From Chloroflexota bacterium (GTDB lineage: Bacteria > Chloroflexota > Anaerolineae > UBA2200): DNA of 64,000 nucleotides. The notes beneath the pieces are model-generated. The model ran no database searches, was not told where the DNA came from, and saw only the letters and a list, made by a program, of their open reading frames with translations. Below are positions 4,532-28,575 of this stretch, piece by piece. Numbering within the stretch: position 1 is the stretch's first letter; every line of letters begins with the position of its first letter. Position numbers and translations under genes: made by a program. The stretch spans positions 1 to 64,000 of the forward strand of contig JACIWW010000009.1 of NCBI GenBank assembly GCA_014360905.1, given 5' to 3'.

Positions 4532-5518
4532 ATGCAGAACAACGCAAAAATCTACGGACGCCGTGGAGCACTCTCTAACACCTCAGCGCGTGACTATTTC
4601 GTCGGCCGGGACATTCTATCCGTGAAGCAATTCGACCGCGATCGCTTGGAGTATTTGTTCGCGCTCGCGGAAGAGATGCGCATCCTGGTGCAACGAGAGG
4701 GCTCGTCTAACATCTTGCGCGGGCGCGTCTTGGCCTGCCTATTCTATGAGCCGAGCACACGCACTAGTTCCTCATTTGTCGCCGCGATGTCTCGGCTTGG
4801 GGGAAGTGTGATTCCCATCAACGAGGTGCGCTTCTCGTCGGTCATGAAAGGCGAGTCCCTACCCGATACCGTGCGCTCGCTGGAATGCTATGCCGATGCA
4901 ATTGTCCTGCGTCACCCTGAAGTTGGGTCGGCTCAAATCGCCGCCGACGCCGCGCATAAGCCGGTGATCAACGCAGGCGATGGCATCGGCGAGCACCCGA
5001 CACAGGCTTTGCTCGACATCTTCACCATCGAAGAAGAGTTAGGCGGGATTGATGGGCTTACGGTGGGCATGCTCGGAGACCTCAAATACGGTCGCACGGT
5101 CCACTCGTTAACCCGTCTGCTCAGCCTTTTCGATGTCAAATTGCGCTTTATCTCGCCCGATTCACTACGCCTGCCCAGAGAACTGATTGAGGAACTGGAC
5201 GCCACAGGCATCCCCTATCTGGAAACTGCGGATTTGAACAAAGTCATAGGTGAGTTGGATGTGCTTTATGTAACGCGAGTGCAAAAAGAACGCTTCGCCG
5301 ACCCAGCCGAGTATGAGAAAGTCAAAGACTACTATATTATCACACCAGACATCATGCGCCGTGCTAAGGAACGCATGATCCTCATGCATCCCCTGCCTCG
5401 GGTGGGGGAAATTGACCCGGAAGTGGATAAAGATCACCGTGCCGCATACTTCAGACAAATGGAAAACGGCATGTATATCCGCATGGCCCTGCTTGCAGCC
5501 GTGCTGGGCAAGGGATAG
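4532..5518 (+). CDS. pyrB: aspartate carbamoyltransferase catalytic subunit
   Basis: Condenses carbamoyl phosphate with aspartate. Carbamoyl-phosphate-binding [11 protein letters not shown] (about 73-83), the mobile-loop Lys in [12 protein letters not shown] (Lys106), EHPTQALLD (154-162) and the aspartate-domain [10 protein letters not shown] are all present. 328 residues is slightly longer than usual because of an N-terminal extension of about 20 residues. A strong ribosome site (AGGAGG) precedes ATG 4532. No regulatory subunit gene (pyrI) is seen in the window. Confidence 0.95.
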
Positions 5519-5537
5519 AGTGTAGAAAGGAGAACGG

Positions 5538-6983
5538 GTGCAGCCAAAAAAATCCTTTCTCGAAAAACTAAATGAACGCATCACAAAAGCCAATTCCCTT
5601 CTGTGCGTCGGCTTGGACCCAGATATGCGCCAATTACCCAAGCCCATGCGCCTTGCCGATGACCCCCTCTTTGCCTTCAACAAATGGCTTATCGAGCTGA
5701 CGGCGTCCTACGCCTGCGCCTTCAAAGTGAATAGCGCTTTTTACGAGGCAGAGGGTGCAAGTGGTTGGCAAACCTTGCAGCACACGATCGCCATCGTCCC
5801 ACCCGAAATACCGGTCATCCTGGATGCCAAGCGCGGCGATGTGGGGCCTTCATCCGAAGCCTATGCCAGAGCTGCTTTCGATGTGTTGGGCGCGGATGCC
5901 GTGACCGTGAATCCCTACTTGGGAGGCGATGCTCTGCTGCCCTTCATCAGCCGTCCACAGCATGGCGTGTTCGTGCTGTGCCATACATCGAATCCTGGTG
6001 CTGAGACAATTCAAGGAATGTCATGTCACGGGCGTGCCCTCTACGAACGCATCGCTGAGTTAGCACTGTCGTGGAACACGAACGGCAACGTGGGGCTGGT
6101 GGTGGGTGCCACTTACCCCAAAGCCCTGCGCCGATTGCGCGAACTCGCACCACAGATGGTATTCTTAGTACCCGGTCTGGGTGCACAGGGCGGCGATGTC
6201 CAGGCAGCCATAGACGCGGGATTGAACAGGAATGGGCGTGGCATGTTGCTTAGCGTATCGCGCGCAATCATCTACGATGCACGACCTGACCAGGCTGCAG
6301 CACGATGGCGGGATGCCATCAATGCCGCCTGTGCTGCCAGGCAGATTCGCCCCAGTGTCCCCAAGTTATCCTCGCACGACGAGTTGATACTTGCATTGCA
6401 CGAGGCAGGTTGCATCCAGTTTGGCACGTTTACATTGCATTCAGGCGAGATTTCGCCCATTTACATTGATTTGCGCCTGTTGGTCTCTTTTCCCTTGCTT
6501 TTGCAGCAAGTAGCCTATGCCCTAACCGCTTTGCTGCGCAACCTAGACCATGACCGCATCGCCGCCATTCCCTACGCCGCTCTGCCCATTGGCATAGCCG
6601 CGGCAATAGAACTAAATCGGCCACTGATCTACCCGCGTCGCGAAGCCAAGACGTATGGCACGCGACGCAGCATCGAAGGGCAGTTTACCCCCGGCGAGCA
6701 GGCGGTGGTGCTGGATGACCTCATTACTACCGGGGACAGTAAACTGGAAGCCATTGCAGCACTGCAATCAGCCGGCCTCCGTGTAAAAGACATCGTCGTG
6801 CTGATAGACCGAGAGCAAGGAGGAGCAGAACAACTCGCCCAGCAAGGCTATCGCGTGCACAGTGTTCTGAAATTGAGCCAGGTGCTGCAGGTGCTGGTTG
6901 CGCATGGACGCATTAGTTCAGAGCAGTACGAGCAAGTGTATAACTGGCTGGACAAAAGCCGTGGAGCAAAATCTTCTGGCTAA
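5538..6983 (+). CDS. pyrFE: bifunctional OMP decarboxylase / orotate phosphoribosyltransferase
   Basis: One chain for the last two steps to UMP. Residues 1-about 272 are a type-2 OMP decarboxylase with the catalytic DAKRGDVGPSSEAYA (Asp96, Lys98, Asp101). Residues about 280-481 are the phosphoribosyltransferase, with the PRPP loop VLDDLITTGDS (391-401). The order is decarboxylase first, opposite to the animal UMP synthase. GTG start at 5538 with GAAAGGAG upstream, 19 bases after pyrB. Fusion would keep orotate and OMP within one complex. Confidence 0.93.
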   Translation: MQPKKSFLEKLNERITKANSLLCVGLDPDMRQLPKPMRLADDPLFAFNKWLIELTASYACAFKVNSAFYEAEGASGWQTLQHTIAIVPPEIPVILDAKRGDVGPSSEAYARAAFDVLGADAVTVNPYLGGDALLPFISRPQHGVFVLCHTSNPGAETIQGMSCHGRALYERIAELALSWNTNGNVGLVVGATYPKALRRLRELAPQMVFLVPGLGAQGGDVQAAIDAGLNRNGRGMLLSVSRAIIYDARPDQAAARWRDAINAACAARQIRPSVPKLSSHDELILALHEAGCIQFGTFTLHSGEISPIYIDLRLLVSFPLLLQQVAYALTALLRNLDHDRIAAIPYAALPIGIAAAIELNRPLIYPRREAKTYGTRRSIEGQFTPGEQAVVLDDLITTGDSKLEAIAALQSAGLRVKDIVVLIDREQGGAEQLAQQGYRVHSVLKLSQVLQVLVAHGRISSEQYEQVYNWLDKSRGAKSSG

Positions 6984-7042
6984 GGCATGAAAATGTAACA
7001 TCCTTTCTATCTATAGGAGTGGGCATAAAAAAGGAACTAACG

Positions 7043-7972
7043 ATGAATTTATCTGTGCAACTATGCGGTGTGCCTCTTCCCAATCCGCTGATCCTCGCTT
7101 CAGGCATCCTTGGCACCCAGGCTGGGCTGCTGGTGCGCGTGGCGCGGGCTGGTGCAGGAGCCGTAACATCCAAATCGTGCAGCCTTCAGCCACGGGCAGG
7201 GCATCCCAATCCCACGGTGCTCGATTGGGGTGGGGGCTTGATCAATGCCATAGGATTGAGCAATCCCGGCGTCGAAGCACAAATCGCTGAACTGCGTGCG
7301 GCCAAGCAGCAGCTACGGACACTCGGCGTGCCTCTTATCGCCAGTGTTTTTGCTCATACGGTGAACGATTTCGTGGCAGTTGCGGAGCGCATGTGCCTGG
7401 CCGATCCCGACTTCCTGGAGATCAATATCTCCTGCCCCAATGTGGAAGCCGAATTTGGTCCCCCCTTTGCTGCCGACCCTCGCATGTCTGCAGCGGTCAC
7501 GAGCGCGGTCAAAGCCGTCGTCAACTGCCCCCTCATCGTCAAACTCTCCCCTAATGTGTCAGACATTGCCGCAATCGCGCGGGCAGTGGAGGATGCCGGT
7601 GCCGACGCCATCGCGGCTATCAATACCCTGGGTCCAGGCATGGTCATTGACATACATTCGGGTGCGCCCATACTCGCCAATAGGGTAGGCGGTGTCTCTG
7701 GCCCGGCGATTCGTCCCATTGCCGTGCGCTGTGTGTACGATATCTATGCGACAGTGCGCATCCCGGTCATCGGCATTGGCGGCGTAACCACTGGGCGCGA
7801 TGCACTGGAAATGATCCTGGCTGGAGCAACAGCAGTCGGCATTGGCTCAGCGCTTTATTACCGCGGTCTTGATGCCTTCCAACTTATCCGAAGCGAGATG
7901 GAAAATTTGATGGAAGAATGTAGCTATCGGAATCTGGATGAAATCAGAGGAATTGCCCATGAGCGACCATGA
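7043..7972 (+). CDS. pyrD: dihydroorotate dehydrogenase, class 1B catalytic subunit
   Basis: Oxidises dihydroorotate to orotate with FMN. Start set at ATG 7043, which has AAGGA eight bases upstream; the GTG at 7019 has its only purine run directly against it. N-terminus NPLILASGILG, catalytic-loop Cys in NISCPNVEAEFG, Lys in LIVKLSPNV, FMN-binding IGIGGVTTGRDALE and a C-terminal GSALYYRG are visible. The Cys base and the adjacent pyrK gene identify the NAD-linked class 1B and not the quinone-linked membrane class. The first 14 bases of pyrK overlap its 3' end. Confidence 0.93.
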   Translation: MNLSVQLCGVPLPNPLILASGILGTQAGLLVRVARAGAGAVTSKSCSLQPRAGHPNPTVLDWGGGLINAIGLSNPGVEAQIAELRAAKQQLRTLGVPLIASVFAHTVNDFVAVAERMCLADPDFLEINISCPNVEAEFGPPFAADPRMSAAVTSAVKAVVNCPLIVKLSPNVSDIAAIARAVEDAGADAIAAINTLGPGMVIDIHSGAPILANRVGGVSGPAIRPIAVRCVYDIYATVRIPVIGIGGVTTGRDALEMILAGATAVGIGSALYYRGLDAFQLIRSEMENLMEECSYRNLDEIRGIAHERP

Positions 7973-8801
7973 ACATGACCATCAAAACTCTAGCGTATAC
8001 CCTGAATACACAAAGGCCAGGGACATCCTCTCAAAAGCGGTAATGCTGCCGCGTCCGGCTCGTATCCGTCAAATTACACAAGAAAGCACGCGGGTAAAAA
8101 GTTTTGTCTTGGAGGACTGTGTCGAGTCCGTGCCGGGGCAATTCGTGATGATCTGGCAGCCCGGCTTGGATGAGAAGCCGTTCAGCCTAGCCAATGATGA
8201 CCCGCTCACGATTGTTGTAGCCCAAGTGGGTCCTTTCACGACCGCGCTACACAACTTGCAGGCAGGTAACTGGTTGTGGTGGCGTGGCCCTTTTGGACGC
8301 GGGTATACGCTGCCTGCCATATATCCCGCCGATTGTAGCGACAGCAAGCAGACACTGTTGCTCGTCGGCGGGGGGTACGGCGTAGCGCCGCTCGCCTTCT
8401 TGGCGCGACATGCAAGAGCAGCAGGTTGGCCAGTGACTGCCATTGTAGGCGCGCGGACCAAAGGGGACGTCATCCTGCAAGAGCGCTTCACGGATTTGGG
8501 CTGTCAAACGCTCATTTGCACCGATGACGGCTCTACCGGGCAGCAAGGAACGGCTGTGGATCTTGCTGAAAGATTTCTGCAGCAGGCTGAGCGGGACGAA
8601 ATCAGGATAGTCTATGGTTGTGGCCCCCACGCCATGTTGGAGGCATTGCGCGCCATTTGCTGCGAGCACGCCTTGCCATGCCAACTCAGTTACGAAGGCT
8701 TCATGAAGTGCGGCTTCGGCCTATGTGGGTCATGTGCCTGGCAGGGGCTGCTCATTTGCCGAGATGGCCCTGTTCTGGAGTGGTCCCCAAAGAAACCCTA
8801 A
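7959..8801 (+). CDS. pyrK: dihydroorotate dehydrogenase electron-transfer subunit
   Basis: FAD/2Fe-2S flavoprotein that passes electrons from PyrD to NAD. Start set at ATG 7959 because AGAGGAA lies eight bases upstream; an in-frame ATG at 7938 is further inside pyrD. It has the ferredoxin-reductase fold: FAD-binding KPFSLAN, nucleotide-binding LLVGGGYGVAPL, and the C-terminal cluster ligands in MKCGFGLCGSCAWQGLLIC (Cys-x4-Cys-x2-Cys, then one more Cys). Overlap with pyrD implies translational coupling. Last gene of the operon. Confidence 0.92.
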   Translation: MSDHEHDHQNSSVYPEYTKARDILSKAVMLPRPARIRQITQESTRVKSFVLEDCVESVPGQFVMIWQPGLDEKPFSLANDDPLTIVVAQVGPFTTALHNLQAGNWLWWRGPFGRGYTLPAIYPADCSDSKQTLLLVGGGYGVAPLAFLARHARAAGWPVTAIVGARTKGDVILQERFTDLGCQTLICTDDGSTGQQGTAVDLAERFLQQAERDEIRIVYGCGPHAMLEALRAICCEHALPCQLSYEGFMKCGFGLCGSCAWQGLLICRDGPVLEWSPKKP

Positions 8802-8994: not shown

Positions 8995-9912
8995 ATGACT
9001 CGTTTCTTTTTGCGTCGCCTAGGCTCGATTCTGCTCATCAGCCTGGCCATCATATTTTTCTGCGCCCTTGGACTGCAAATGATGCGTCAGCCATTTGTGG
9101 CGTCGCGTCAACACAGCACCAACGTGCTGATGCAAGCTGTCCGCGATACCCGATCCTTTATCCATGACATGTTCTCCGGCAACTTGGGCATGGTTCAGCG
9201 TGGCAGTGGCCGCACCCGCACCTTCGTGCCGGTAACGACGGTCCTGGCGGATACCTATGTGAAGAGCATGGGGCTGCTTCTCATTTCCCTGCTTTTCGCT
9301 GCTGTGCTAGGCATCGGCGCAGGTCTGCTCGCAGCCTATTGGGAAGGCTCTCCGCTGTCACTGGGGCTGCTCACCACCACTTTGCTCGGCATCTCCTTGC
9401 CTTCCTTCTTTACCGCGCTGCTGTTGCAAGTGCTCGAAATCACCTGGTATCAGCGCACTAGAGTGCGTCTGGTGCCGGTAGGAGGATTTGGCTGGGATGC
9501 ACATCTTATCCTGCCTGGGCTGGTGCTCGCGGCACGTCCGCTGGCGCAGGTAGCACGCATCACCTTCATCTCCCTGACCGAAGCTGCCCACCAAGACTAT
9601 GTGCGCACTGCCCACGCCAAGGGATTGCCCAAACGTCGGGTGTGGAGCGACCACGTGCTGCCAAACGCCGCCGTACCCATCCTCACCGCCTTGGGCGTCT
9701 CGTTGCGCTTTTCCTTGGGCAGTTTGCCCGTCGTGGAATACTTCTTCGGCTGGCCAGGACTGGGCGCTACACTACTGACCGCCATCCGCATGCGCCATAC
9801 GAACCTAGTTATCAGCATGGCCCTAGCACTCGGGCTGACATTTATGCTAATCAACCTATTGCTGGAACTAGCGTACCGCGTGCTCGATCCAAGAATAAGA
9901 AGCGAGGGGTAA
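8995..9912 (+). CDS. ABC transporter permease, DppB/OppB family
   Basis: 305-residue inner-membrane permease of the peptide/nickel family: N-terminal helix (RRLGSILLISLAIIFFC), a periplasmic loop, then five helices in the binding-protein-dependent transport fold. The EAA loop reads EAAHQDYVRTAHAKGL followed by HVLPNAAVPIL. ATG at 8995 has AAAGGAG about 11 bases upstream. Family members pair with a DppC-type permease, two ATPases and a lipoprotein receptor. The DppC partner is the next gene but no ATPase or receptor gene lies in this window. Confidence 0.88.
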   Translation: MTRFFLRRLGSILLISLAIIFFCALGLQMMRQPFVASRQHSTNVLMQAVRDTRSFIHDMFSGNLGMVQRGSGRTRTFVPVTTVLADTYVKSMGLLLISLLFAAVLGIGAGLLAAYWEGSPLSLGLLTTTLLGISLPSFFTALLLQVLEITWYQRTRVRLVPVGGFGWDAHLILPGLVLAARPLAQVARITFISLTEAAHQDYVRTAHAKGLPKRRVWSDHVLPNAAVPILTALGVSLRFSLGSLPVVEYFFGWPGLGATLLTAIRMRHTNLVISMALALGLTFMLINLLLELAYRVLDPRIRSEG

Positions 9913-9972: not shown

Positions 9973-12432
9973 TTGTTTGACCGTCTGAAACGCATCATAT
10001 CATCTGAACCCGACTTGACCTGGCTGGAGGCAGAAGGGCCCCAGATTGAATCGTTGCCAGAACCGCGTGCTGTCGAGCACCGACAGCCTCGCCCGCGCCT
10101 GGAAATAAACGGGCCACTGATCATCGGCAGCCTGATTGTATTCGCGTTGTTCCTCGTCGTGCTCTTTGGGCCACTTCTGGCACCGGAGAACCCGTACCTG
10201 GCTGGCCAGCGTAGCTCGATGGTCATAAACGGTCAGTTCACCACGCCGCCTTTTCCTCCTATGCCTGGCCTGCCACTGGGCACGGATGAGTGGGGACGCG
10301 ACATCCTCAGCATGTTGCTCTATGGTACGCGCAACACGTTGGTTGCTTGCCTGTTTATCGCCATGGCGCGCATCTTGCTTGGTTCTGCGCTAGGCATGCT
10401 CGCTGGTTGGAATGAGGGCGGACTGCTCGACCGCCTGGTCATGGGACTAGTGGAATGGACCACTGCCCTGCCGGCGCTGTTGACCGGCATGATCCTGATC
10501 CTCGCCCTCGGCATCCAGCGCGGCATTACCGTCTTCATCGTAGCCCTCTGTTTCGTTGGCTGGGCCGAGATCGCCCAATACATCCGCAGCGAGTTTATGG
10601 TCGTGCGCCGCAAGCCTTTCATCGAGGGGGCACGCGTTATCGGACTAGATGGACTAGGCATTGCCATTCGCCACATCCTGCCCAACGTCCTGCCGTCGTT
10701 GGTGGTCATCGCCGTGCTGGAGATGGGCGCCGTGCTCATGATTCTGGGCGAACTGAGCTTTATCGGCGTATTCATCGGCGGAGGCACCTGGGTACAAGTT
10801 GGTGACACCGCAGTGGTCAACATCCCCGACATCCCAGAATGGGGAGCAATGATGGCTGGCGCGCGCCAGTACGCCCGCAGCAAAACCTGGATGGTCTTTT
10901 ACCCGGCTCTGGCCTTCTTCCTGGCGGTGCTAGGCTTTAACTTGCTAGGCGAAGGCTTGCGGCGCATCGTGCAACAGCGCGGCGTCAGCACCGCCTTCAT
11001 CCTGAGCAAGCGCATGGTGCTCGTCATCGCCGCCATCACTCTTGCAACGGTGTATATCGTCACTCATGTCGGTCCTGCTCCCTCCTATGCTGGACTCGCG
11101 CAGCGTTTCGATGTCCAAAACGCACTGTCCCACCTGGAAGCATTGACCGTACCAGAAATGGAGGGGCGACTGCCTGGTACGCCAGGAGCAGATGCAGCAG
11201 CAGCCTATATTGCCCAGCAATTTGCTCGCCATGGGCTGGAAACAATCAAGCCGGGTTGGGACTTTTGCTTGCCTTGGACCACACAGGTGGTAACTCCAGT
11301 CACCCAACCACTGTTGGAGATGCTCGACAGCGCTGGACAAGCGCTGCATTCGTTCCGCTACCGTGTAGATTTCGGCGTGGACATCCGCGGCCACGGTGGA
11401 TCTGGAGAAGTGAATGCGCCAGTGGTCTTGCTCACTTTCGCCAAATCTTCATACAAGGCGGAGGAATTCGCAGAACTCGATCTGCGAGGTCGCATCGCGC
11501 TTTGGCTATCTAGCAATGCACCGCCTGGCTTCGTGGTAGAAGCGCTCATCCGCGGAGCTGTGGGCGTGGTCATCATTGACGAGGACATCGCTCCACGGCT
11601 GCAACTGGCACGCCAAGAGGCAGAGTATCTACGTCCGGTCGTCCTGCCCATTTTCCACATCAGCCCTGCCGCAGCCGATATTTTGCTTAGTCCAGATGGC
11701 CTGAGCATCGCAACGCTCCAAAAGACGTTGGCAGAAACAGATCCCGAAGCAGCACCGTGGACCGCATACGAACTGAGCCATCGCCTGCACATGCAACTGG
11801 AACTTTCCGCTCCCCATGAAGTAACGACAGATAACGTGCTCGCTGTATTCAGAGGTGCGGACGCCCAACTGAACAAGCAACTGGTCATTGTCTCTGCGCA
11901 TTACGATAGTGCGGGCCGCCAGCCGGATGGGACTGTGTTCCATAGTGCTAATGATGGCGCCTCAGGCATTGCGGTGATGCTCGAAATTCTGCGTCTGTGG
12001 ACGGAAACCGGTTTTCAGCCGCGCCGTACGATGCTCTTTGCCGCTTGGTCAGGCGGAGAATGGGAACACTCCGGTGCTCACGAATACCTTGCTGCCCAAG
12101 CACCCTATTCCATACTCAAGACCGTCGCCGTAGTGAACCTCGATGGCCTTGGCCGCGGTGGCAGCGAACTAATCGTCAGTGGTGACGAGAAACTGACCGA
12201 GCTTTTCCTACGCACTGCCGAAAGCAGTGGCATCCCGGCCAAAAGCAACACCATGCGCTATCATCCCTACTATACCGCCTTTTCAGCGCCAATGGTAGCA
12301 ATAGGCTGGAGTGATGACGGCCTGCCGGCAAGCGAAGACACCTTCGACCATATCAACCCATCTCAACTCAACGCTGCCGGCCAAGCAGTCAACCTAGCCC
12401 TGATCACCTTAAGCCGTGAATATGAGTATTAG
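9973..12432 (+). CDS. DppC-like ABC permease fused to a degenerate M28 peptidase domain
   Basis: 819 residues with an unusual architecture. Residues about 45-335 are a DppC/OppC permease: six helices, the family TDEWGRDILS motif and the EAA loop EGARVIGLDGLGIAIRHILP (219-238). An extra helix (MVLVIAAITLATVYIV, about 348-363) should put the rest outside the cell. Residues about 385-819 are an M28 aminopeptidase-like domain with a PA-like insert. Metal ligands His643, Asp661 and Glu696 and a later Asp (VVNLDG) are kept. The general-base Glu is Gly695 (SGGEWEH) and the last His ligand appears to be Pro785. It is therefore probably a non-catalytic peptide-binding domain. Start is TTG at 9973 with AGGA upstream. 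I inspected the frame and see no frameshift or stop at the junction. Confidence 0.85.
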   Translation: MFDRLKRIISSEPDLTWLEAEGPQIESLPEPRAVEHRQPRPRLEINGPLIIGSLIVFALFLVVLFGPLLAPENPYLAGQRSSMVINGQFTTPPFPPMPGLPLGTDEWGRDILSMLLYGTRNTLVACLFIAMARILLGSALGMLAGWNEGGLLDRLVMGLVEWTTALPALLTGMILILALGIQRGITVFIVALCFVGWAEIAQYIRSEFMVVRRKPFIEGARVIGLDGLGIAIRHILPNVLPSLVVIAVLEMGAVLMILGELSFIGVFIGGGTWVQVGDTAVVNIPDIPEWGAMMAGARQYARSKTWMVFYPALAFFLAVLGFNLLGEGLRRIVQQRGVSTAFILSKRMVLVIAAITLATVYIVTHVGPAPSYAGLAQRFDVQNALSHLEALTVPEMEGRLPGTPGADAAAAYIAQQFARHGLETIKPGWDFCLPWTTQVVTPVTQPLLEMLDSAGQALHSFRYRVDFGVDIRGHGGSGEVNAPVVLLTFAKSSYKAEEFAELDLRGRIALWLSSNAPPGFVVEALIRGAVGVVIIDEDIAPRLQLARQEAEYLRPVVLPIFHISPAAADILLSPDGLSIATLQKTLAETDPEAAPWTAYELSHRLHMQLELSAPHEVTTDNVLAVFRGADAQLNKQLVIVSAHYDSAGRQPDGTVFHSANDGASGIAVMLEILRLWTETGFQPRRTMLFAAWSGGEWEHSGAHEYLAAQAPYSILKTVAVVNLDGLGRGGSELIVSGDEKLTELFLRTAESSGIPAKSNTMRYHPYYTAFSAPMVAIGWSDDGLPASEDTFDHINPSQLNAAGQAVNLALITLSREYEY

Positions 12433-12463: not shown

Positions 12464-12506
12464 AACGAATAAACGAATCACAGCGCCCGCCATTCGTTTG
12501 TTCGTT
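12464..12506. repeat. palindromic repeat shared with 58749-58792
   Basis: AACGAATAAACGAAT (12464-12478) pairs with ATTCGTTTGTTCGTT (12492-12506) around a 13-base loop rich in G and C. A close relative lies at 58749-58792. It fills most of the gap between the permease-peptidase fusion and the propeller gene. Confidence 0.65.
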
Positions 12507-12537
12507 GCCCTATTCCTTGATGGCACCATACCCAACT

Positions 12538-13725
12538 ATGAGCGAACGGACACAGCAAATAATCTGGATAACCATGGCTCTTATGGCCATGTGCCTGAGC
12601 GCGGTGACCATCTGGCTCTTTGCCAAGAGCCTGCAGATGAGGCCAACCCAGGCCACATCGCCATACCTTATCGCGTACATCTCGGATCGCAACGGGAAGT
12701 ACCAAATATACCTCTGCGACCTGGAGGGACGCGAAATCACTTCGCCGATGCCATTTCAATCTGGCGATGTCCTTCCCGTTTGCGAGCCCCACCCACGGGC
12801 AGGCAGCGGAGGACCACGTATCGCCTTTATTCGCTTCGAAGCGCAGCTAGGAAGCATCAGCGCTACTGAAGTGGGCACACCCGGAAGCATCTATGTCGTC
12901 ACCTATGGTGAGAACAAAGCGACCAAGATCAGCGGCAAAGTACCGCGTATCCTCGCCGTGGCCCCCGCCTGGTCACCCGATGGCAAGGAACTCGCCTTCG
13001 CGGGCGTAGAAGATCTCAACGGAGATGGACAGTTCACCAAAGACGAAGCCGGAATCTACCTCTGCAACGTGGAAAGAGGCGGGGTTAGACGAGTGGCTAC
13101 CATTTACACCATTGGCACACGCCTTCAATGGTCGCCCGTGGAAGCCTCTCTGATCCTGCAAGCCGAGAAAACAAACGTGCCCCTGCCGGTGGCCCACCTC
13201 CTGGACCTGACCAGCGGGCAATTGATTACCAGAGATGACGCCACCATGACGGCTTGTTGGTCCCCAGATGGCCAATTCATTGCGCTCTACTCCCTTGCGG
13301 ATCGCAAGATTCACGTGCTCAGCAAGGATGGCAGCGAACAATACATGATAAACGCTCCAGGCGAGTTCCTGGTTGAGTTGCATTGGTTGCCTGCTAGAGC
13401 CAGCACTCGTGCTGAAGACAAAGGTTATCTCCTAGCAGTCGTGGCGTCATCACCTAGGTCCTATTCGGGTCAACTCTACCTCAGGCCTGCATCCCCCGGA
13501 AGTAGCGAGACGTGGAAAGCCCTTACTGCTGCTGAAGCCAGTGCTGCTTATCCCGCCGCATCGCCGGATGGCCGCTACTTGGCCTATACACTGATGGCCG
13601 CACACGGCCCCACGTCTATGAGTGTAGACCTCTATGTTCTGGAGCTGGATAAAGCCCAGCCTCGCCATCTGACCAGCGACCCAGGCTTCGAAGGATTCCC
13701 AACCTGGATACCAGTGGGGAAGTGA
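12538..13725 (+). CDS. membrane-anchored TolB-like beta-propeller protein
   Basis: About 395 residues: an N-terminal membrane helix (IIWITMALMAMCLSAVTIWL), then WD40-like/TolB propeller blades marked by WSPDGKELAFAG, WSPDGQFIALYS and SPDGRYLAYTL, presumably outside the membrane. Start is uncertain: ATG 12538, ATG 12520 and TTG 12505 are in frame and none has a good ribosome site; I prefer 12538. One segment (DLNGDGQFTKDE) resembles an EF-hand loop and may bind calcium. It lies between two peptidase-bearing genes, 33 bases before the next, so it may be a scaffold or substrate-binding partner. Function unproven. Confidence 0.75.
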   Translation: MSERTQQIIWITMALMAMCLSAVTIWLFAKSLQMRPTQATSPYLIAYISDRNGKYQIYLCDLEGREITSPMPFQSGDVLPVCEPHPRAGSGGPRIAFIRFEAQLGSISATEVGTPGSIYVVTYGENKATKISGKVPRILAVAPAWSPDGKELAFAGVEDLNGDGQFTKDEAGIYLCNVERGGVRRVATIYTIGTRLQWSPVEASLILQAEKTNVPLPVAHLLDLTSGQLITRDDATMTACWSPDGQFIALYSLADRKIHVLSKDGSEQYMINAPGEFLVELHWLPARASTRAEDKGYLLAVVASSPRSYSGQLYLRPASPGSSETWKALTAAEASAAYPAASPDGRYLAYTLMAAHGPTSMSVDLYVLELDKAQPRHLTSDPGFEGFPTWIPVGK

Positions 13726-13758: not shown

Positions 13759-16700
13759 ATGAATAATTTCAGCGAACATTCAGCGCAACAGAGAAGCAGA
13801 TTGCCTAATCCCAGGTGGATACCTGTCGTTGCCATCTTTTTGATGCTCTGGGCAGTAGCCCTGGGTGTGTGGTGGTCACGGCTGCAAGGAACGCCCATCC
13901 TCACACATCTGCAGCCCACGCCAGCAGCAACTGCTGCGGCTCGCCTCACGCCTCAGCCTGGAGAGGCAGCCCAACCCATTCCCGAGAGCACACCGGTCAC
14001 GGTTCCTGTCGTACGCGAGGCCAAGCAAGTTGTCCGTGACGAGGATTGGATTACCCTGGCGAGATCTTTTCGCGTGGAACATGCCCTGTCCGACATTGCC
14101 GAACTCATCAGCCCGAAGTACGCTGGTCGGGCTGTCGGTTCCCCCGGGGGCAAACTGGCAAGCGAGTGGATTGCGGCCCGCTTTGCGGAATACGGGCTAC
14201 AGCCAGCAGGCGACAACGGCACCTATTTCCAAGAGTTTCCCGTTCCCTATGCTGAATTAACTGCCATGCCCACCTTCCAAATCGTGGATGAGCGCGGCCA
14301 AGTGGTCGCGGAGTACCATCTTCGCGACGACTACACCATCTGGCTGGGCGGCTATGCGGATGGAGGACAAGCCGAAGGGCCTGTGATCTGGGTCAGTGAT
14401 GGCAGGCACGAGGATTACAATGGGCTAAACGCTGAAGGTGCCATTGTGCTTTGCCGTTACAGATACCCAGTGGATGACGTGCTCCGTCAAGCGTTAGAGC
14501 ATGGTGCCAAGGCCGTGCTGCTGGCTCGTCCGGAGAGCACCAGCTTTCCAATGCGCCGACAGGCTCATCAGGGGCCACTGTTACCTCAGGGCATACCCAC
14601 ATTGATTGTCGGTCAGAGAGTACTACAAGGGCTACTAGCCGACAGTGGCATGACTCTGGAGGACCTGACAATCCAATATCAATGGCGTCCTCTATCCACC
14701 CGTGTGCGCCTTAATGTGCCCCTGCGCTACGAAAAAACCGCAACAGGGCGTAATGTGTTGGGCGTGCTTCCTGGCTCCGACCCGGATGGCACACAGCAAG
14801 TCTTCATCATCGGTGCTCACTACGACCACCTCGGCGCAGACCCCGATGGCACAGTCTGGGGTGGTGCCAATGACAATGCTTCCGGTGTTGCTGTCCTCCT
14901 GGAGATCGCACGGCTGTGGCAGGAGGTGGGTTACGTACCTCAGCGTACTGTGCTGTTCGCTGCTTGGGACGGCGAGGAGATTGGCCTCTATGGCTCCAAC
15001 TATTATGTCGAACACCCGCGCTATCCCTTGAAAAATACCGTAGGCATGCTGCAATTGGACATGGTGGGCGCAGGCAACGCCAAGTTGCTCATCGATGCCG
15101 GTGGCATTGTGGCAGATCAATCCCTCGTCGCCGCAGCACAGTTGGGCATTGAGGTAGAAACACAGTCCATGGGACGCAGCGATCATGCCCCCTTCGTCGG
15201 AGCAGGCGTGCCCGCAACGCTCTATATCTGGTGGGATGGGGTTGCTCCTGGGGTCATCTACCATGTCCCCGAAGACAACTTGGACAACATCGAACCAGAC
15301 AAACTACAAGCCGCAGGCCAACTGGCCCATTTGGTGCTGCTCCAGTTTAGCCATGAGCAAGAGAAACTGGAGGATTTGTTTGTCCAATACGAACAAGCGA
15401 TTGCGGCACGGGACGCGGATGCTCTGCATGCCATCACCTATGATCAGGATAGAGAGCTCTTGCTCTGGCAGGAAGACTGGCTGAAGGGCTTGACCCTCCG
15501 TCAGCCTGCCGAATTTAGCGCTACGGTAGGTTCAGCGTTAGTTGCGACAGATATCGCCACTGCGACGGTTACACTCCGCTATCGCTGGAAGCCCGAGCAT
15601 TCCCAGGCCATGGCCAGTTTTCCCGCTAAATGGGTGCGCGATGACCATCATTGGTACTACGGCGGCCCAGCATGGGACGCAGTGCAAGGTCAGCATACGC
15701 TTGTGCAGCACTTCCAGCAGCCTGACCTAGCCCAGAGCATAGCTCAGGAGGCTGATTCACTCTATGAATTCCTCGTAGATGAGGCTGATCTGGACCTGCC
15801 AGACCCGATCGTCGTGGGCTTCTACAGCCAACCTTTCCGCAGCGGTGACCTGGCATTGCCTGGTACAGGCAGTAAGTACTTGCTGCACGCCTTGCATGCC
15901 CCACCACCGGGCTATGATGAGGCACCAGGTTGGCCGCTGAGCGACGGCATCGCCCTAAGCGACCAGGCAAGCCTGCCCACGCTCCTCTTCGAGTTTGCCT
16001 TGCAGCATACGGGCTGGCCCACACAGACCACCAGTTGGCTAGCCCAGGGTTTGTCAGATTGCCGGCGCGCTATGAGCCCAATGCTCGAAGAACAGCTCCA
16101 AAGCGAGTATATACCGCTGCTCCTTCAGGCAAACCGCAGCGGTACGCTGTGGACTGCCCAGGAGATGCCCACCCGCTATCAGATCAGTCCCCCAGAAGGG
16201 AGACTGTGGGTTGCCCAGTCCTGGGCCATGGCTCACTATCTCCTGCAAACTCATGGCTGGACGGCACTGCGATACCCTACTGCAATCAATATGGAGAGTT
16301 GGCGCACCGCTCTTCTTGCCCCCTGGCAACTGGCTGCAGAGGGCATTGAGCAGACCCTTGCAGAACGCCGTAACGCCATTCTCGCCCGTGACCAAGCAGC
16401 TTTCTTGGCTACGGTTGACCCACAGAATACCACGCTTTACCAAGAAGAAACGCACTGGTTCGAAGACCTACTGGAGCATCCGGTAGCCGAATTTGCCTAC
16501 GAAAGCCAATTGCTGTCACTAACTGATCATCAGGCTACAATAAGACTCACTGCCAAATACAAACTGGCTGAGCCAGATGCATCCTCCATGAGCGTTACCT
16601 ACAATGCCCATTTTGTACACAAGGACAACCGTTGGCTCTACGCGGATGTTGCTTTCATGGAGCAGCGCAGCGAGCATTTTGTGCTCAAATACCAACACCC

Positions 16701-18678
16701 TGACCAAGGTCGTTATGCCACCACATTGCTCGATGAAGCAGAACGCGCCTACGACCTCGTCACTGCCGATTTGGACTTTTACCCCATTCAGCCCATCGAA
16801 ATCAAAGCCTATGACGACAACAGTACATTCCGCTATTCCATCTATCTGTCCATGCCCTATGCTCAGGGCTGGACGGAGCCTGGCGAGTCCATCAAGTTGG
16901 GCATTCCAGACTGGAGACAAAACGGATACAACGGCGTGGGGCGCATTATTGCGCACGAACTGACTCATACTGCCCTGTTTGCAAAAGGGGTTCAGCACGG
17001 GGGTGTGCACGAGGGTGCCGCGCAGTACGAAGCAACTCGCTACGATCCACAGTGGTTCAACCAGGAGGTACGCAAATGGCGCCGCCAAGTGTACGATTTG
17101 GTGCGCAGCAAGCGTCCTCTCACTCTAGCAGATTTGGACAACTGGCGCGAACTATCCAAGGATGATCTCCAGTTGCTCTACAGCGTGGGTTGGGACATTG
17201 TCAGTTATTTCCGGCAATGCTATGGCCGCGAAACCTTCCTGGAATGGCTGCGATTGCTGGGCACAGGCCTATCTTTCGGGGATGCCTTTGTCCGCACAAC
17301 CGGCACGACATTTGCCGATTTCGACGCAGCATGGCGCGAATCCGTCTTACGAGGGCACATCTCCCCACAACTCATTGCCCTGTCATCCGAATTTGATGGC
17401 GAACTTGCGCTGCAGCATGTCTATACACTGACTCAAGCAGCATGGACAGGGCGCGAGGCAGGAACCCTCGGCAACGATGCCGCTGCCCACTACATCGCCG
17501 AGCAATTTGCTGCATTGGGACTGCAACCCGCTGGGGATAACGGGACCTACTTCCAGACCTTTGCCTTCACTCAGACAGCACTGATAACTACACCCCAATT
17601 GACCTTGATAGGACAGGATGGCCAGACACATACCCTGCAGTACCGAGTGGATTTTCGCGAATTGTTAGGAGGATGCGCAGGAGGCGGTCAGGCGGGAAGC
17701 AGCATTGTGTATGTGAAGGATCTGAAGAACGAGAATATACAACTGGGTGGGCGAGTGGCGTTGGCCCGTGCTGGTCCAGACCCGTGGACAGATGCTGAGA
17801 ATGCCTTATCCCGTGGTGCTGGCGGGCTATTGCTCATCACCGACAAATGGCCCAAGGATATGTCCATCAAGACGGATGACATACACAGCCTGAGTACACC
17901 GACAATTCCGGTTTTTGAACTGACGAGGGAAGCCTTCGACTTGCTCCTTACTATCGCTGGCTATCGATCTGCGCAGCTTGAAAAGTCCCCGCCCGCTTTG
18001 CCCTTGCCCCTATCAGTGCGCATGTCCGTGCAAATAGAGAGCGCGCTGAGCAGTGCATCCAATGTCTTGGGCGTACTGCTTGGCAGTGACCCGGAACTTG
18101 CTGATGAAGTGCTGATCCTGGGAGCACACCTCGACCATGTCGGCATTCTGCCCGATGGCACGCTCTACCCCGGCGCCAATAATGACGCCAGCGGAGTCGC
18201 CGTCCTGCTGGAACTCGCCAGGCTCTGGCACGAAGCAGGCTACTACCCACGCCGCACTGTTCTGTTTGCTGCCTGGAACGCTGCTGAGCAGGGCTTGCTC
18301 GGCTCTAGGTATTATGTCGCGCATCCAGTTTATCCTCTGACCAGTACAGTGGCAGCCATTCAACTCGACATGGTTGGTCAGGGACGGGGCTATTACATCG
18401 GCGTCTATGCCGAGGAGCAACAGGATGCCATCATCCTGGCACATCTGGATAACGCCGCCACGCAGGTCGAGGGACGGTTAAACTTCAGCAAGTACGAAGG
18501 CAATAGCGATCACGAGACCTTCCATGCACTAGGCATCCCGGCGGTCAAGCTGTCCTGGGAGCGCCCCGATTACGTGCACATGCCTGGCGATACCCCAGAC
18601 CTGATAGACACCCGCAAACTACAAGCCACGGGACGTGTGCTTGCCCTAACCATCATGACCTTAGCGGATCATGAATAG
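13759..18678 (+). CDS. exported multi-peptidase: M28 / HExxH metallopeptidase / degenerate M28
   Basis: 1639 residues. A signal-anchor helix (IFLMLWAVALGVWW, about 23-36) is followed by a linker and M28 domain 1 (about 105-530) with a complete di-zinc site: His354, Asp372, general base Glu406, Glu407, Asp434, His502, and a PA-like insert. Residues about 540-1170 hold two related alpha/beta segments and a gluzincin site, HELTH (1066-1070) with HEGAAQ (Glu1085), as in peptidase-MA-like domains. M28 domain 2 (about 1190-1639) keeps His1457, Glu1510 and His1607, but the general base is Ala1509 and the bridging Asp is Asn1475, so it is probably inactive. Substrates are most likely peptides. Three protease-fold modules on one chain is unusual. 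Confidence 0.85.
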   Translation: MNNFSEHSAQQRSRLPNPRWIPVVAIFLMLWAVALGVWWSRLQGTPILTHLQPTPAATAAARLTPQPGEAAQPIPESTPVTVPVVREAKQVVRDEDWITLARSFRVEHALSDIAELISPKYAGRAVGSPGGKLASEWIAARFAEYGLQPAGDNGTYFQEFPVPYAELTAMPTFQIVDERGQVVAEYHLRDDYTIWLGGYADGGQAEGPVIWVSDGRHEDYNGLNAEGAIVLCRYRYPVDDVLRQALEHGAKAVLLARPESTSFPMRRQAHQGPLLPQGIPTLIVGQRVLQGLLADSGMTLEDLTIQYQWRPLSTRVRLNVPLRYEKTATGRNVLGVLPGSDPDGTQQVFIIGAHYDHLGADPDGTVWGGANDNASGVAVLLEIARLWQEVGYVPQRTVLFAAWDGEEIGLYGSNYYVEHPRYPLKNTVGMLQLDMVGAGNAKLLIDAGGIVADQSLVAAAQLGIEVETQSMGRSDHAPFVGAGVPATLYIWWDGVAPGVIYHVPEDNLDNIEPDKLQAAGQLAHLVLLQFSHEQEKLEDLFVQYEQAIAARDADALHAITYDQDRELLLWQEDWLKGLTLRQPAEFSATVGSALVATDIATATVTLRYRWKPEHSQAMASFPAKWVRDDHHWYYGGPAWDAVQGQHTLVQHFQQPDLAQSIAQEADSLYEFLVDEADLDLPDPIVVGFYSQPFRSGDLALPGTGSKYLLHALHAPPPGYDEAPGWPLSDGIALSDQASLPTLLFEFALQHTGWPTQTTSWLAQGLSDCRRAMSPMLEEQLQSEYIPLLLQANRSGTLWTAQEMPTRYQISPPEGRLWVAQSWAMAHYLLQTHGWTALRYPTAINMESWRTALLAPWQLAAEGIEQTLAERRNAILARDQAAFLATVDPQNTTLYQEETHWFEDLLEHPVAEFAYESQLLSLTDHQATIRLTAKYKLAEPDASSMSVTYNAHFVHKDNRWLYADVAFMEQRSEHFVLKYQHPDQGRYATTLLDEAERAYDLVTADLDFYPIQPIEIKAYDDNSTFRYSIYLSMPYAQGWTEPGESIKLGIPDWRQNGYNGVGRIIAHELTHTALFAKGVQHGGVHEGAAQYEATRYDPQWFNQEVRKWRRQVYDLVRSKRPLTLADLDNWRELSKDDLQLLYSVGWDIVSYFRQCYGRETFLEWLRLLGTGLSFGDAFVRTTGTTFADFDAAWRESVLRGHISPQLIALSSEFDGELALQHVYTLTQAAWTGREAGTLGNDAAAHYIAEQFAALGLQPAGDNGTYFQTFAFTQTALITTPQLTLIGQDGQTHTLQYRVDFRELLGGCAGGGQAGSSIVYVKDLKNENIQLGGRVALARAGPDPWTDAENALSRGAGGLLLITDKWPKDMSIKTDDIHSLSTPTIPVFELTREAFDLLLTIAGYRSAQLEKSPPALPLPLSVRMSVQIESALSSASNVLGVLLGSDPELADEVLILGAHLDHVGILPDGTLYPGANNDASGVAVLLELARLWHEAGYYPRRTVLFAAWNAAEQGLLGSRYYVAHPVYPLTSTVAAIQLDMVGQGRGYYIGVYAEEQQDAIILAHLDNAATQVEGRLNFSKYEGNSDHETFHALGIPAVKLSWERPDYVHMPGDTPDLIDTRKLQATGRVLALTIMTLADHE

Positions 18679-25521: not shown

Positions 25522-28500
25522 ATGATTCGTCGCTTCGTGATCCTCTCACTCGCTCTCCTATGCCTTTCCCTGCTATGGATTCTATTGCCAGGGCAGGCTT
25601 TTGGCTACGTGCCTGCTGACATTCAAGCACCACAGCCATCTACTTCAGATAGCCGCCCGGTGTTGCAGAAAGCACCCACACGTCAACTGCCTGCACAAAT
25701 GCCTCCCTCGCGTACCGGCTACCTACCACCATCGCTCGACTTGAGCCATTTGAAGGGAAATAGACTACCATTAGAAGCCAGAGCACTATCCCTGCCCACT
25801 AGGTGGGACTGGCGTGAACAGGGTAAGGTCACGCCGGTAAAAGATCAGCAAGCGTGCAAAGCCTGTTATGCTTTCGCTGCCGTTGGCAACTTGGAATCCC
25901 GTATGCTCATTGATGGAGCTGGCCTCTATGACTTTTCGGAGAACAATGCCAAAGAATGCAATTGGGAAGCAGTGAACGACATCGGTGGCAGTTGTTTGGG
26001 CGGAAATGCTCTCATGGTGACCAATCTGTTCTCCCAAAAGGGAAGCGTCGAGGAATCATGCGACCCGTATATGGATTTCCAAACCGACTGCAATCTCTCC
26101 TGCCCCTATCAGAAAACGCTATCGGATTGGAGTATCATAAGTGGCGAAGTTCTTCCCGATGCCAATGTATTGAAATGGTATCTCTACAATTACGGTCCGT
26201 TGCAGACTACCATGTACGCAGGCTTCGGCGGAGATAATTGGGAAATCGAATTCTCGAATTACGATGGCTCCTACACTTTGTATTACCCAGGAACAGAGCC
26301 ACCTAACCACAGCGTCCTGATCGTTGGTTGGGATGACACACTTGTTCCCCGCGATCGTCCCAGCCTACGAGGCGGCTGGATTGTGAAGAACAGTTGGGGC
26401 TCGGCAGGTTGGGGCGGCACTTGCGGCTACGGCTCCGAGCGTGGATACTTCACCATTGCCTATGGCTCAGCCAGCATTGGGATGAATTCCTCCTTTATTC
26501 AAGGGTGGCAGAACTATGACCCTGCAGGGCAGCTTTTATACTATGATGATGCCGGCTGGAATGAAGCCTGGGGGTATGGCAGTACAACCGCCTGGGCCTT
26601 GTGCAAATTCATCCCCGCCAGCGATACTTGGGCCAGGAGCATCGAATTCTGGACAACCGATGCAACTACCGATGTAGACCTCTATCTCTATGACACGTTC
26701 GATGGTGATAGGTTAAGCAATCTGCTCTATAGTAGAGAGAACCTGTTCTTCACCGAGGCGGGATACCATTCGGTGCACATCATACCACCTCTCCGTCTAA
26801 CGGGCACCAATGACATAGTGGCGGTCGCCAAGTTCACCAATGCCGACTACGCTTACCCGGTGGCAGTTGACGCTCAGGGACCTTCAGAAATAGGCCGCAC
26901 TTATCTGAGCTTCAATGGCCAAGACGGATGGTGGGAAGATGCGGGGCGGGCAGGCGCTGATGTGGGCATCCGCCTGCGCACTTCAGCGCAACCTGGTGTA
27001 TATCTCGTGCTGGTTCCGCTTGCCTCCTCTGTTGCGAAGGACCAAATTTTCACCGTGGATATCCAGATTGCCGCTGGTGCCGAGCAGATCATCGTTGCGA
27101 TGTTGTACCTCGATTTCAATCCGCTGTATTTGCAAGTAGTAGATGCTAGCGGGAACCCCGCGAGTGCTATTGAAGTCAATGAGGACTACTTTGACTATGT
27201 TACGAAGAATTCTGCAAACAACACCACAGGCCAGATAGATTTGTGGGCAGGTGTTGGTGTGACCAAAGAGCCACCGAGTGGCACCTTTCGTGTGGCGACG
27301 ATACGCTTCAAAGCACTGTGGGGCACCGGCGGATTGAGCACGCCATTGACCTTTGTTTCGCGTAATGGTGATCCACCAATGGTATATAACCTGAATGGCG
27401 ATGAAGTGCTGACAGGGGTGCAAAACGGCACAGTGACTATCAGCGGCCCAACTCCACCCGTGCCTGGAACCTTTCAGGATCCTTTGCCCATTGGTTGTGG
27501 GCAATCAACCTCAGACGATAACGCAAACTACCCAGCCAACATAAGCGATTATGGGGAATGCGGCTCTGATTTCAATGCGTCCGAAGTGGTGTATAAACTG
27601 AGCATTGACACGCCAACGACATTGAACATCACCTTGACCACAACGGCAGAGCTAGCGATGTTCCTGCTTTCTGAACCCGATCCCAACACTTGCTTCGATA
27701 TGGGCGCGTACATCGAGAGGGATGTCCTTCCAGGTACGTATTACCTGGTCGTTGATGGTCTAGAAACGGGCGACTATGCCATTGACGTCCAGTGCCGTGC
27801 TTGGCAAACGCCCACGCCAACTGAACCATTGACGCCAACGCCAACCGAAACACTTACGCCGACACCAACTCATACACCAACTTCAACGCCAACGAATACA
27901 CCCACACCAACTCCTACCCAAACACCAACTCGTACTGTTACACCTACACCAACCAGCACTCCTATTCGTTTCAAACTTTACCTGCCATTGGTGAGGGGAG
28001 GTTCTGGCATCTTGCTGACGCCTACTCCGACAGCTACGGCGACACGCACGCCAACCCAAACGGCTACTCCCACTTCAACCAACACACGGACTGCTACTCC
28101 TACGCCCACAACTGGGCCATCGCCGACTCCGACCGCCACCCCTGCCGGGACTTTCGAAGATCCAATCCCGGTTGCTTGCGAGGGCTTCTACAGCAACAAT
28201 ACCGCTGGGCATCGGGCAGTCATCAATGACTATGGTAACTGCGGCACAGGACAAGTCGGCCCGGAGGTCATCTACACGTTGCAACTCGATTCCCCATTGG
28301 CTCGCCTCGAGATAAGCCTTGGTGCATCGGCAGACCTGAGGATCTTTCTCTTCATCGGAGACAGTCCGGCCAATTGCTTTGCCGTAGTCAGCCCAGGGCT
28401 TGCACGTATACTTTATGATATACCGCGGGGCACGTACTATCTAGCCGTTGATGGCCCCACAGCCGGCAGGTACAGCATGGCCATCCATTGCACACCATTA

Positions 28501-28575
28501 ACAGTGCACCTGTCGAGCCCTGGCGGCATTGCCTCTGTGCCTTGGCTCTTGCTAGAGCGCCCCTTGAGCAACTAA
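25522..28575 (+). CDS. secreted papain-family (C1A) cysteine protease with cohesin-like and PPC-like domains
   Basis: 1017 residues. Signal peptide (about 1-28), a short propeptide, then a papain domain with oxyanion Gln109, catalytic Cys115 (QQACKACYAFA), His263 (PNHSVLIVGW) and Asn290 (VKNSWGSAGWGG), so it should be active. Then comes a jelly-roll-like segment (about 345-490), a cohesin-like domain (about 492-640; FTVDIQIAAGAEQIIV), and two PPC-type domains (about 650-760 and 870-1000; PGTYYLVVDG and RGTYYLAVDG) separated by Thr-Pro linkers. Between them lies KLYLPLVRGG (about 818-827), a signature more often found at the very C-terminus. ATG 25522 has AAAGGA upstream. It probably digests proteins or binds to a surface outside the cell. 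Confidence 0.88.
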   Translation: MIRRFVILSLALLCLSLLWILLPGQAFGYVPADIQAPQPSTSDSRPVLQKAPTRQLPAQMPPSRTGYLPPSLDLSHLKGNRLPLEARALSLPTRWDWREQGKVTPVKDQQACKACYAFAAVGNLESRMLIDGAGLYDFSENNAKECNWEAVNDIGGSCLGGNALMVTNLFSQKGSVEESCDPYMDFQTDCNLSCPYQKTLSDWSIISGEVLPDANVLKWYLYNYGPLQTTMYAGFGGDNWEIEFSNYDGSYTLYYPGTEPPNHSVLIVGWDDTLVPRDRPSLRGGWIVKNSWGSAGWGGTCGYGSERGYFTIAYGSASIGMNSSFIQGWQNYDPAGQLLYYDDAGWNEAWGYGSTTAWALCKFIPASDTWARSIEFWTTDATTDVDLYLYDTFDGDRLSNLLYSRENLFFTEAGYHSVHIIPPLRLTGTNDIVAVAKFTNADYAYPVAVDAQGPSEIGRTYLSFNGQDGWWEDAGRAGADVGIRLRTSAQPGVYLVLVPLASSVAKDQIFTVDIQIAAGAEQIIVAMLYLDFNPLYLQVVDASGNPASAIEVNEDYFDYVTKNSANNTTGQIDLWAGVGVTKEPPSGTFRVATIRFKALWGTGGLSTPLTFVSRNGDPPMVYNLNGDEVLTGVQNGTVTISGPTPPVPGTFQDPLPIGCGQSTSDDNANYPANISDYGECGSDFNASEVVYKLSIDTPTTLNITLTTTAELAMFLLSEPDPNTCFDMGAYIERDVLPGTYYLVVDGLETGDYAIDVQCRAWQTPTPTEPLTPTPTETLTPTPTHTPTSTPTNTPTPTPTQTPTRTVTPTPTSTPIRFKLYLPLVRGGSGILLTPTPTATATRTPTQTATPTSTNTRTATPTPTTGPSPTPTATPAGTFEDPIPVACEGFYSNNTAGHRAVINDYGNCGTGQVGPEVIYTLQLDSPLARLEISLGASADLRIFLFIGDSPANCFAVVSPGLARILYDIPRGTYYLAVDGPTAGRYSMAIHCTPLTVHLSSPGGIASVPWLLLERPLSN

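Follow-up and report, generated by a model that had tools for sequence, protein, structure and literature searches.

Many Anaerolineae seem to carry a peptide-uptake channel to which a dead peptidase is attached in place of a binding protein. In the window, i.e., the whole stretch of 64,000 nucleotides analysed here, a DppC-type permease continues through an additional membrane helix into an extracytoplasmic M28-fold domain devoid of essential catalytic residues. Peptide importers normally use a separate binding protein, and type I ABC importers are thought to need such a protein, of the Venus-flytrap type, both for specificity and for switching of the ATPase. The chances are about even that the present system is an importer of peptides in which a tethered pseudo-peptidase has taken over from the soluble binding protein, with ATPases that are shared from elsewhere. 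A built-in peptide receptor had been suggested in the first-pass annotation of this DNA; the suggestion is strengthened by the loss of the scoop from the partner subunit DppB and by the retention of its ATPase-docking residues, and it still competes with real rivals.

Architecture of the fusion protein

The fusion gene (9973-12432; this and the other features of the operon lie on the + strand) is one uninterrupted frame of 819 aa with a TTG start and an AAAAGGA-like ribosome site ahead. Two Pfam domains are recognized in the product, BPD_transp_1 at residues 137-336 (62.9 bits, cut-off 26.4) and Peptidase_M28 at residues 621-750 (79.9 bits, cut-off 21.3). The AlphaFold2 model, based on 56 homologs (mean pLDDT 85.3, pTM 0.80), contains seven helices of membrane length (47-69, 111-146, 151-179, 185-212, 227-263, 305-336, and 346-364) followed by a large alpha/beta ectodomain. 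Frame, domains, and helices thus agree with the earlier description of a single chain that joins a DppC permease to an M28 domain through an additional helix.

The permease part (10105..10992, residues 45-340) comprises the first six helices and matches the E. coli DppC chain 8z1v_B with an E value of 3e-31. The BPD_transp_1 domain, the EAA coupling helix, and the six transmembrane helices of an OppC/DppC-type permease are all present, and residues E218, A220, G224, H234, P237, and N238 are conserved. The coupling helix corresponds to residues 213-226 and is located between helices 4 and 5. As the coupling helices of E. coli DppBC lie on the cytoplasmic side (PMC12136057), helix 7 must lead outwards. 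In line with this orientation, the inner end of helix 7 is rich in Arg and Lys and the outer end is not, so that the external location of the M28 domain, originally deduced from the helix count, is corroborated. The helix that takes the chain outside (TM7, 11008..11064, residues 346-364) was found as a hydrophobic stretch at this place in 57/59 fusions.

The extracytoplasmic part (11071..12429, residues 367-819) is a PA-like plus M28-fold pseudo-peptidase domain, as indicated by Pfam, AlphaFold2, and fold matches. A Z score of ~32 links its fold to those of the M28 aminopeptidases 1amp and 2ek8, and one of ~29 to that of transferrin receptor 1 (TfR1), which is among the closest solved structures both by sequence and by fold. 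No substrate-binding protein domain was detected by Pfam in the fusion, and the M28-fold matches span the whole ectodomain (367-819). No usable placement of the M28 domain relative to the pore could be taken from the models, which counts against the receptor reading.

Loss of the active site and selection on the dead domain

An M28 peptidase possesses a general-base Glu and five metal ligands (His, Asp, Glu, Asp, and His). These six positions were aligned against the intact domain of the neighbouring peptidase, taken as reference, and seven unrelated M28 peptidases. The fusion of the window retains His643, Asp657, Glu696, and Asp724, whereas the general base is replaced by Gly695 (12055..12057) and the last metal-ligand His by Pro785 (12325..12327), the same substitutions that had been read earlier from a comparison with the neighbouring gene. 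It had also been proposed to look for the fusion in other Chloroflexota and to align its M28 domains: the fusion recurs, and 22/22 domains of the subfamily to which the window belongs (type A, see below) lack both the base and the last His. All six catalytic residues are present in 0/59 fused M28 domains, as compared to 7/7 canonical M28s. Further ligand losses differ between branches of the fused domains. Because relatives of the window protein do not retain its four ligands throughout, the ability to bind metal is not conserved.

Despite these losses, the ectodomain is under purifying selection, with dN/dS values of 0.06-0.24, from which it follows that the dead domain is used; pseudogene decay is ruled out by the same values. 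The window and its two nearest relatives give 0.10 and 0.10, and the value of 0.24 comes from the most diverged pair, in which synonymous sites are near saturation. The conserved residues of the ectodomain (His474-Gly-Gly, Asp645, Glu671, and Arg685) alone outline no peptide pocket, which also counts against the receptor reading.

Distribution, subfamilies, and origin

Within the genus and family to which the window belongs, four other genomes have full-length matches with 82-61% identity, and matches to the fusion at 54-48% identity extend to more families of the same class. When 396 genomes of the class were searched with a profile, 79 matched at E <= 1e-60, and in about 69 genomes a match spans the junction between permease and M28 domain. 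Among 400 genomes sampled from the phylum, two of another Chloroflexota class were found to bear the fusion as well. A GTDB scan gave 74 loci, and all the fused loci in it are Chloroflexota MAGs; records bearing the fusion include Anaerolineae/Chloroflexi MAGs such as Anaerolineales bacterium UBA2200. In the same scan, none of 41 M28 hits outside Chloroflexota (Aminicenantes, Acidobacteria, Gemmatimonadetes, Planctomycetes, and others) is fused to a permease, and plasmid records gave only permease matches without the fusion. A sequencing or assembly error joining two genes, which would have undone the original observation, is ruled out by the recurrence of the fusion in dozens of independent genomes. 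One type A fusion gene (L153:6693-8159) has a TAA stop within the M28 part and is either a broken gene or an assembly error.

Two subfamilies can be distinguished. Type A, which includes the window, consists mostly of proteins of ~820-860 aa with DppB encoded by a separate upstream gene. Type B, the larger subfamily, joins DppB, DppC, and M28 in one chain of ~1180-1490 aa, and some of its members carry an N-terminal LolD/MacB-like ATPase domain or another extension. Two type B genes were observed in tandem at L176:688-4371 and 4600-8262 (1227 and 1220 aa). In the DppC tree, all fused DppC domains form one clade against canonical DppC (100% SH-aLRT), and type A forms a clade with 96% support. 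In the M28 tree, the fused domains form a group of their own (90%), separate from the M28 domains of the tandem peptidase described below. On these trees, the DppC part of the fusion is of one origin and the fused M28 domain probably is too, a single origin of the fusion being the simplest reading.

The DppB partner and the rebuilt outer face

The putative membrane partner of the fusion is a DppB-type permease (8995..9912, 305 aa), with a BPD_transp_1 score of 115 bits and phmmer matches to DppB/OppB chains of known structure at E 6e-36 to 4e-23. Its gene precedes the fusion at almost every type A locus. The DppB of E. coli DppABCDF bears a scoop motif, located between TM1 and a short helix, which docks the binding protein DppA by filling its cleft; deletion of this scoop impairs transport (PMC12136057). 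The corresponding stretch of the window's DppB, from TM1 to the GNLG motif (9085..9177), lacks the scoop region and is ~16 residues shorter in an alignment with four canonical DppBs of the same genome. The PGDP and LGLDxPxxxQY scoop motifs occur in 0/21 type A DppBs and 0/32 type B DppB domains, as against 6/6 canonical DppBs (the four of the window's genome and two from relatives). Given that E. coli DppB without its scoop transports poorly, another seal must be assumed for this family, a point against the importer reading.

The opposite face of DppB is preserved. Its coupling helix (9595..9666) holds the ATPase-docking residues D201, T205, K209, H220, and N224, spaced as D235, T239, K243, H254, and N258 of E. 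coli DppB (PMC12136057), and this D-T-K-H-N pattern is retained in 21/21 type A and 31/32 type B DppBs. Loss of the dock for the binding protein together with retention of the dock for the ATPase is the pattern that would be expected of a transporter with a built-in receptor.

The outer face of the DppC part is modified as well. Between TM5 and TM6, an extra segment of ~15-19 residues (10777..10833) was recognized in alignments with E. coli DppC and the canonical DppCs of the genome, and AlphaFold2 models it as a beta hairpin with strands at 271-276 and 280-285. This loop measures 22-32 residues in fusions (43/59 measured) versus 8 in canonical DppCs. Scoop loss, DppC hairpin, and ectodomain co-occur.

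Operon and surface peptidase

Four genes follow one another on one strand with gaps of 33-72 bases, i.e., DppB, the fusion, a membrane-anchored PD40/TolB-like beta-propeller (12505..13725; PD40, 60 bits), and a membrane-anchored tandem M28 - MA - M28 peptidase recognized by Pfam (13759..18678). Most type A loci show this gene order, and in most of them the propeller is likewise conserved beside the fusion. The tandem peptidase has an intact first M28 domain in 15/15 genomes and a degenerate last one in 15/15, an active/dead M28 pair within one chain; its middle domain retains HExxH in only about half. According to Pfam, no binding-protein gene (SBP_bac_5) is present in the operon across the type A loci compared, and the SBP_bac_5 genes of the window's genome are located on other contigs, most of them beside other DppBC pairs. 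Upstream of the operon lie genes read by eye as pyrimidine biosynthesis, and farther downstream an unrelated ABC-2/HlyD exporter. The window also encodes a papain-family (C1) protease of 1017 aa with a lectin-like domain (25522-28575), a relative of which, with a cohesin domain, adjoins the same operon in L023. In one relative a heliorhodopsin gene (L026:12871-13665; Pfam, 337 bits) lies just downstream of the tandem peptidase.

The presence of this peptidase after the fusion in most type A loci raises the question of whether the dead M28 domain is a dock, pairing with the intact M28 domain of the anchored peptidase and holding that active enzyme at the permease mouth so that products are released beside the pore. 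M28 proteins often dimerise, and two structural neighbours of the ectodomain, TfR1 and glutamate carboxypeptidase II, are both dimeric. Nevertheless, no peptidase neighbour is conserved in type B, which is the larger subfamily, and scoop loss would be left unexplained because a binding protein would remain necessary. A docking role is therefore regarded as unlikely, albeit the most serious of the competing explanations.

ATPases and the direction of transport

No ATPase gene is linked to the operon in the type A loci compared, which counts against the importer reading. In the window's genome, oligo_HPY ATPases occur in only two pairs, both on contig C18, whereas five other DppBC sets are present; at least two sets of binding protein and DppBC lack an adjoining oligo_HPY ATPase. 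Five other DppBC sets with only two ATPase pairs make the sharing of DppD/DppF-type ATPases with other Dpp systems of the genome plausible. The c8 ATPases near some loci were considered as partners and rejected, as they resemble the ATPases of the ABC-2 exporter that lies near the operon in the window and is unrelated to it.

Type B contributes a further observation against import. In 6/6 ATPase-bearing fusions seen, Walker A or the LSGGQ signature has been lost, and most of these genes adjoin HlyD and MacB-FtsX genes. Such chains, which combine pseudo-ATPase, permeases, and pseudo-peptidase, are found at L034:8669-12997, L036:8893-13215, and L038:5930-10297 and in L030, L031, and L156. Exporters need no binding protein, and a system that exports peptides or small molecules, or that acts as a sensor, with an ectodomain gating release or sensing extracellular ligands, would account for the lack of both binding protein and scoop, as well as for LolD/MacB-type domains beside genes of export machines. 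On the other hand, the permeases have their matches among peptide/nickel importers, the ATPase domains of the fusions are degenerate, and the surface peptidases of type A operons suit nutrient uptake. Export or sensing is thus considered improbable.

Cap and residual enzyme

The joint occurrence of scoop loss, hairpin, and ectodomain would also suit a purely structural role without a ligand, as a cap or plug closing the outer face where the scoop has been lost, and the catalytic pocket indeed varies even inside type A. Maintenance of a 450-residue PA plus M28 fold under the selection reported above would be a costly way to make a plug, however, and, if the binding protein is absent, specificity must reside somewhere; a cap accordingly has a rather slim chance of being the whole explanation. 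An enzyme of reduced or altered activity, using the 4/6 positions kept in the window protein, is very improbable, as the general base and last His are gone throughout type A and relatives lose further, different ligands.

Proposed mechanism and significance

In the receptor reading, DppB and the DppC-pseudoM28 fusion would together make up the transmembrane portion of a peptide importer of the type I ABC kind that works without any soluble substrate-binding protein. The anchored peptidase encoded nearby, which has one intact M28 domain, may trim peptides on the outside of the cell. Held over the pore by TM7, the dead M28 domain would capture peptides in the former exopeptidase substrate cleft without cutting them and hand them to the DppBC channel, and ATP hydrolysis would be provided by the DppD/DppF-type ATPases encoded elsewhere. 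The existence of pseudo-M28 receptors in other systems, such as TfR1, is counted in favour of this reading. Likewise, one type B fusion gene overlaps at its end with a gene for an M32 carboxypeptidase (L040:12619-14250), an arrangement that suits peptide uptake and is counted in favour of the same reading.

A more general proposal, to be taken as tentative and somewhat short of an even chance, is that these proteins represent a class of ABC peptide importers in which both the soluble binding protein and the loop for its docking have been dropped and a fused dead exopeptidase serves as receptor, one subfamily being fed by an active paralogous peptidase of the operon. If true, this would constitute a second way to build the receptor and trigger of type I ABC importers, parallel to the pseudo-peptidase receptors of eukaryotes, and would bear on protein feeding by uncultured Anaerolineae. 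The receptor reading predicts that the ectodomain binds peptides and that the ATPase is stimulated without a binding protein.

Comparison with known systems

In the open-licence literature, no earlier account was found of an ABC permease that carries a pseudo-M28 domain, and NCBIfam has no model for the fusion, all of its permease matches being below cut-off. The receptor design is absent from the literature and family libraries searched, and this variant of the Opp/Dpp permease seems to be new. The loss of the DppB scoop, the kept ATPase-docking residues, and the outer hairpin of DppC are new observations of this analysis.

The DppABCDF/OppABCDF systems (E. coli 8z1v-8z1z, 8z21) share with the window system the DppB/DppC folds, the coupling helices, and the ATPase-docking residues. 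The window system differs from them in having no binding protein in the operon and no DppB scoop, so that the locus lacks two elements of a complete Opp/Dpp system, and in the additional DppC hairpin, TM7, and C-terminal pseudo-M28 domain. GlnPQ is an importer in which substrate-binding domains are fused to the membrane subunit (PMC8025302). The likeness lies in a receptor, here a candidate one, tethered to the permease on the outer face; the receptors of GlnPQ are ordinary substrate-binding (Venus-flytrap) domains, whereas the candidate receptor described here has an exopeptidase fold. M28 aminopeptidases (1amp, 2ek8, and BSAP 6hc6) have the same fold and most of the sequence motifs, but the fusion is without the general base and last His and is joined to a permease. 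Finally, in TfR1, nicastrin, and nicalin, an M28-like fold on a membrane anchor serves recognition or assembly and not peptidase activity, and a substrate pocket has been proposed in the M28-like protein nicastrin (PMC2647162). These three proteins differ from the fusion in being eukaryotic and in standing outside ABC transporters.
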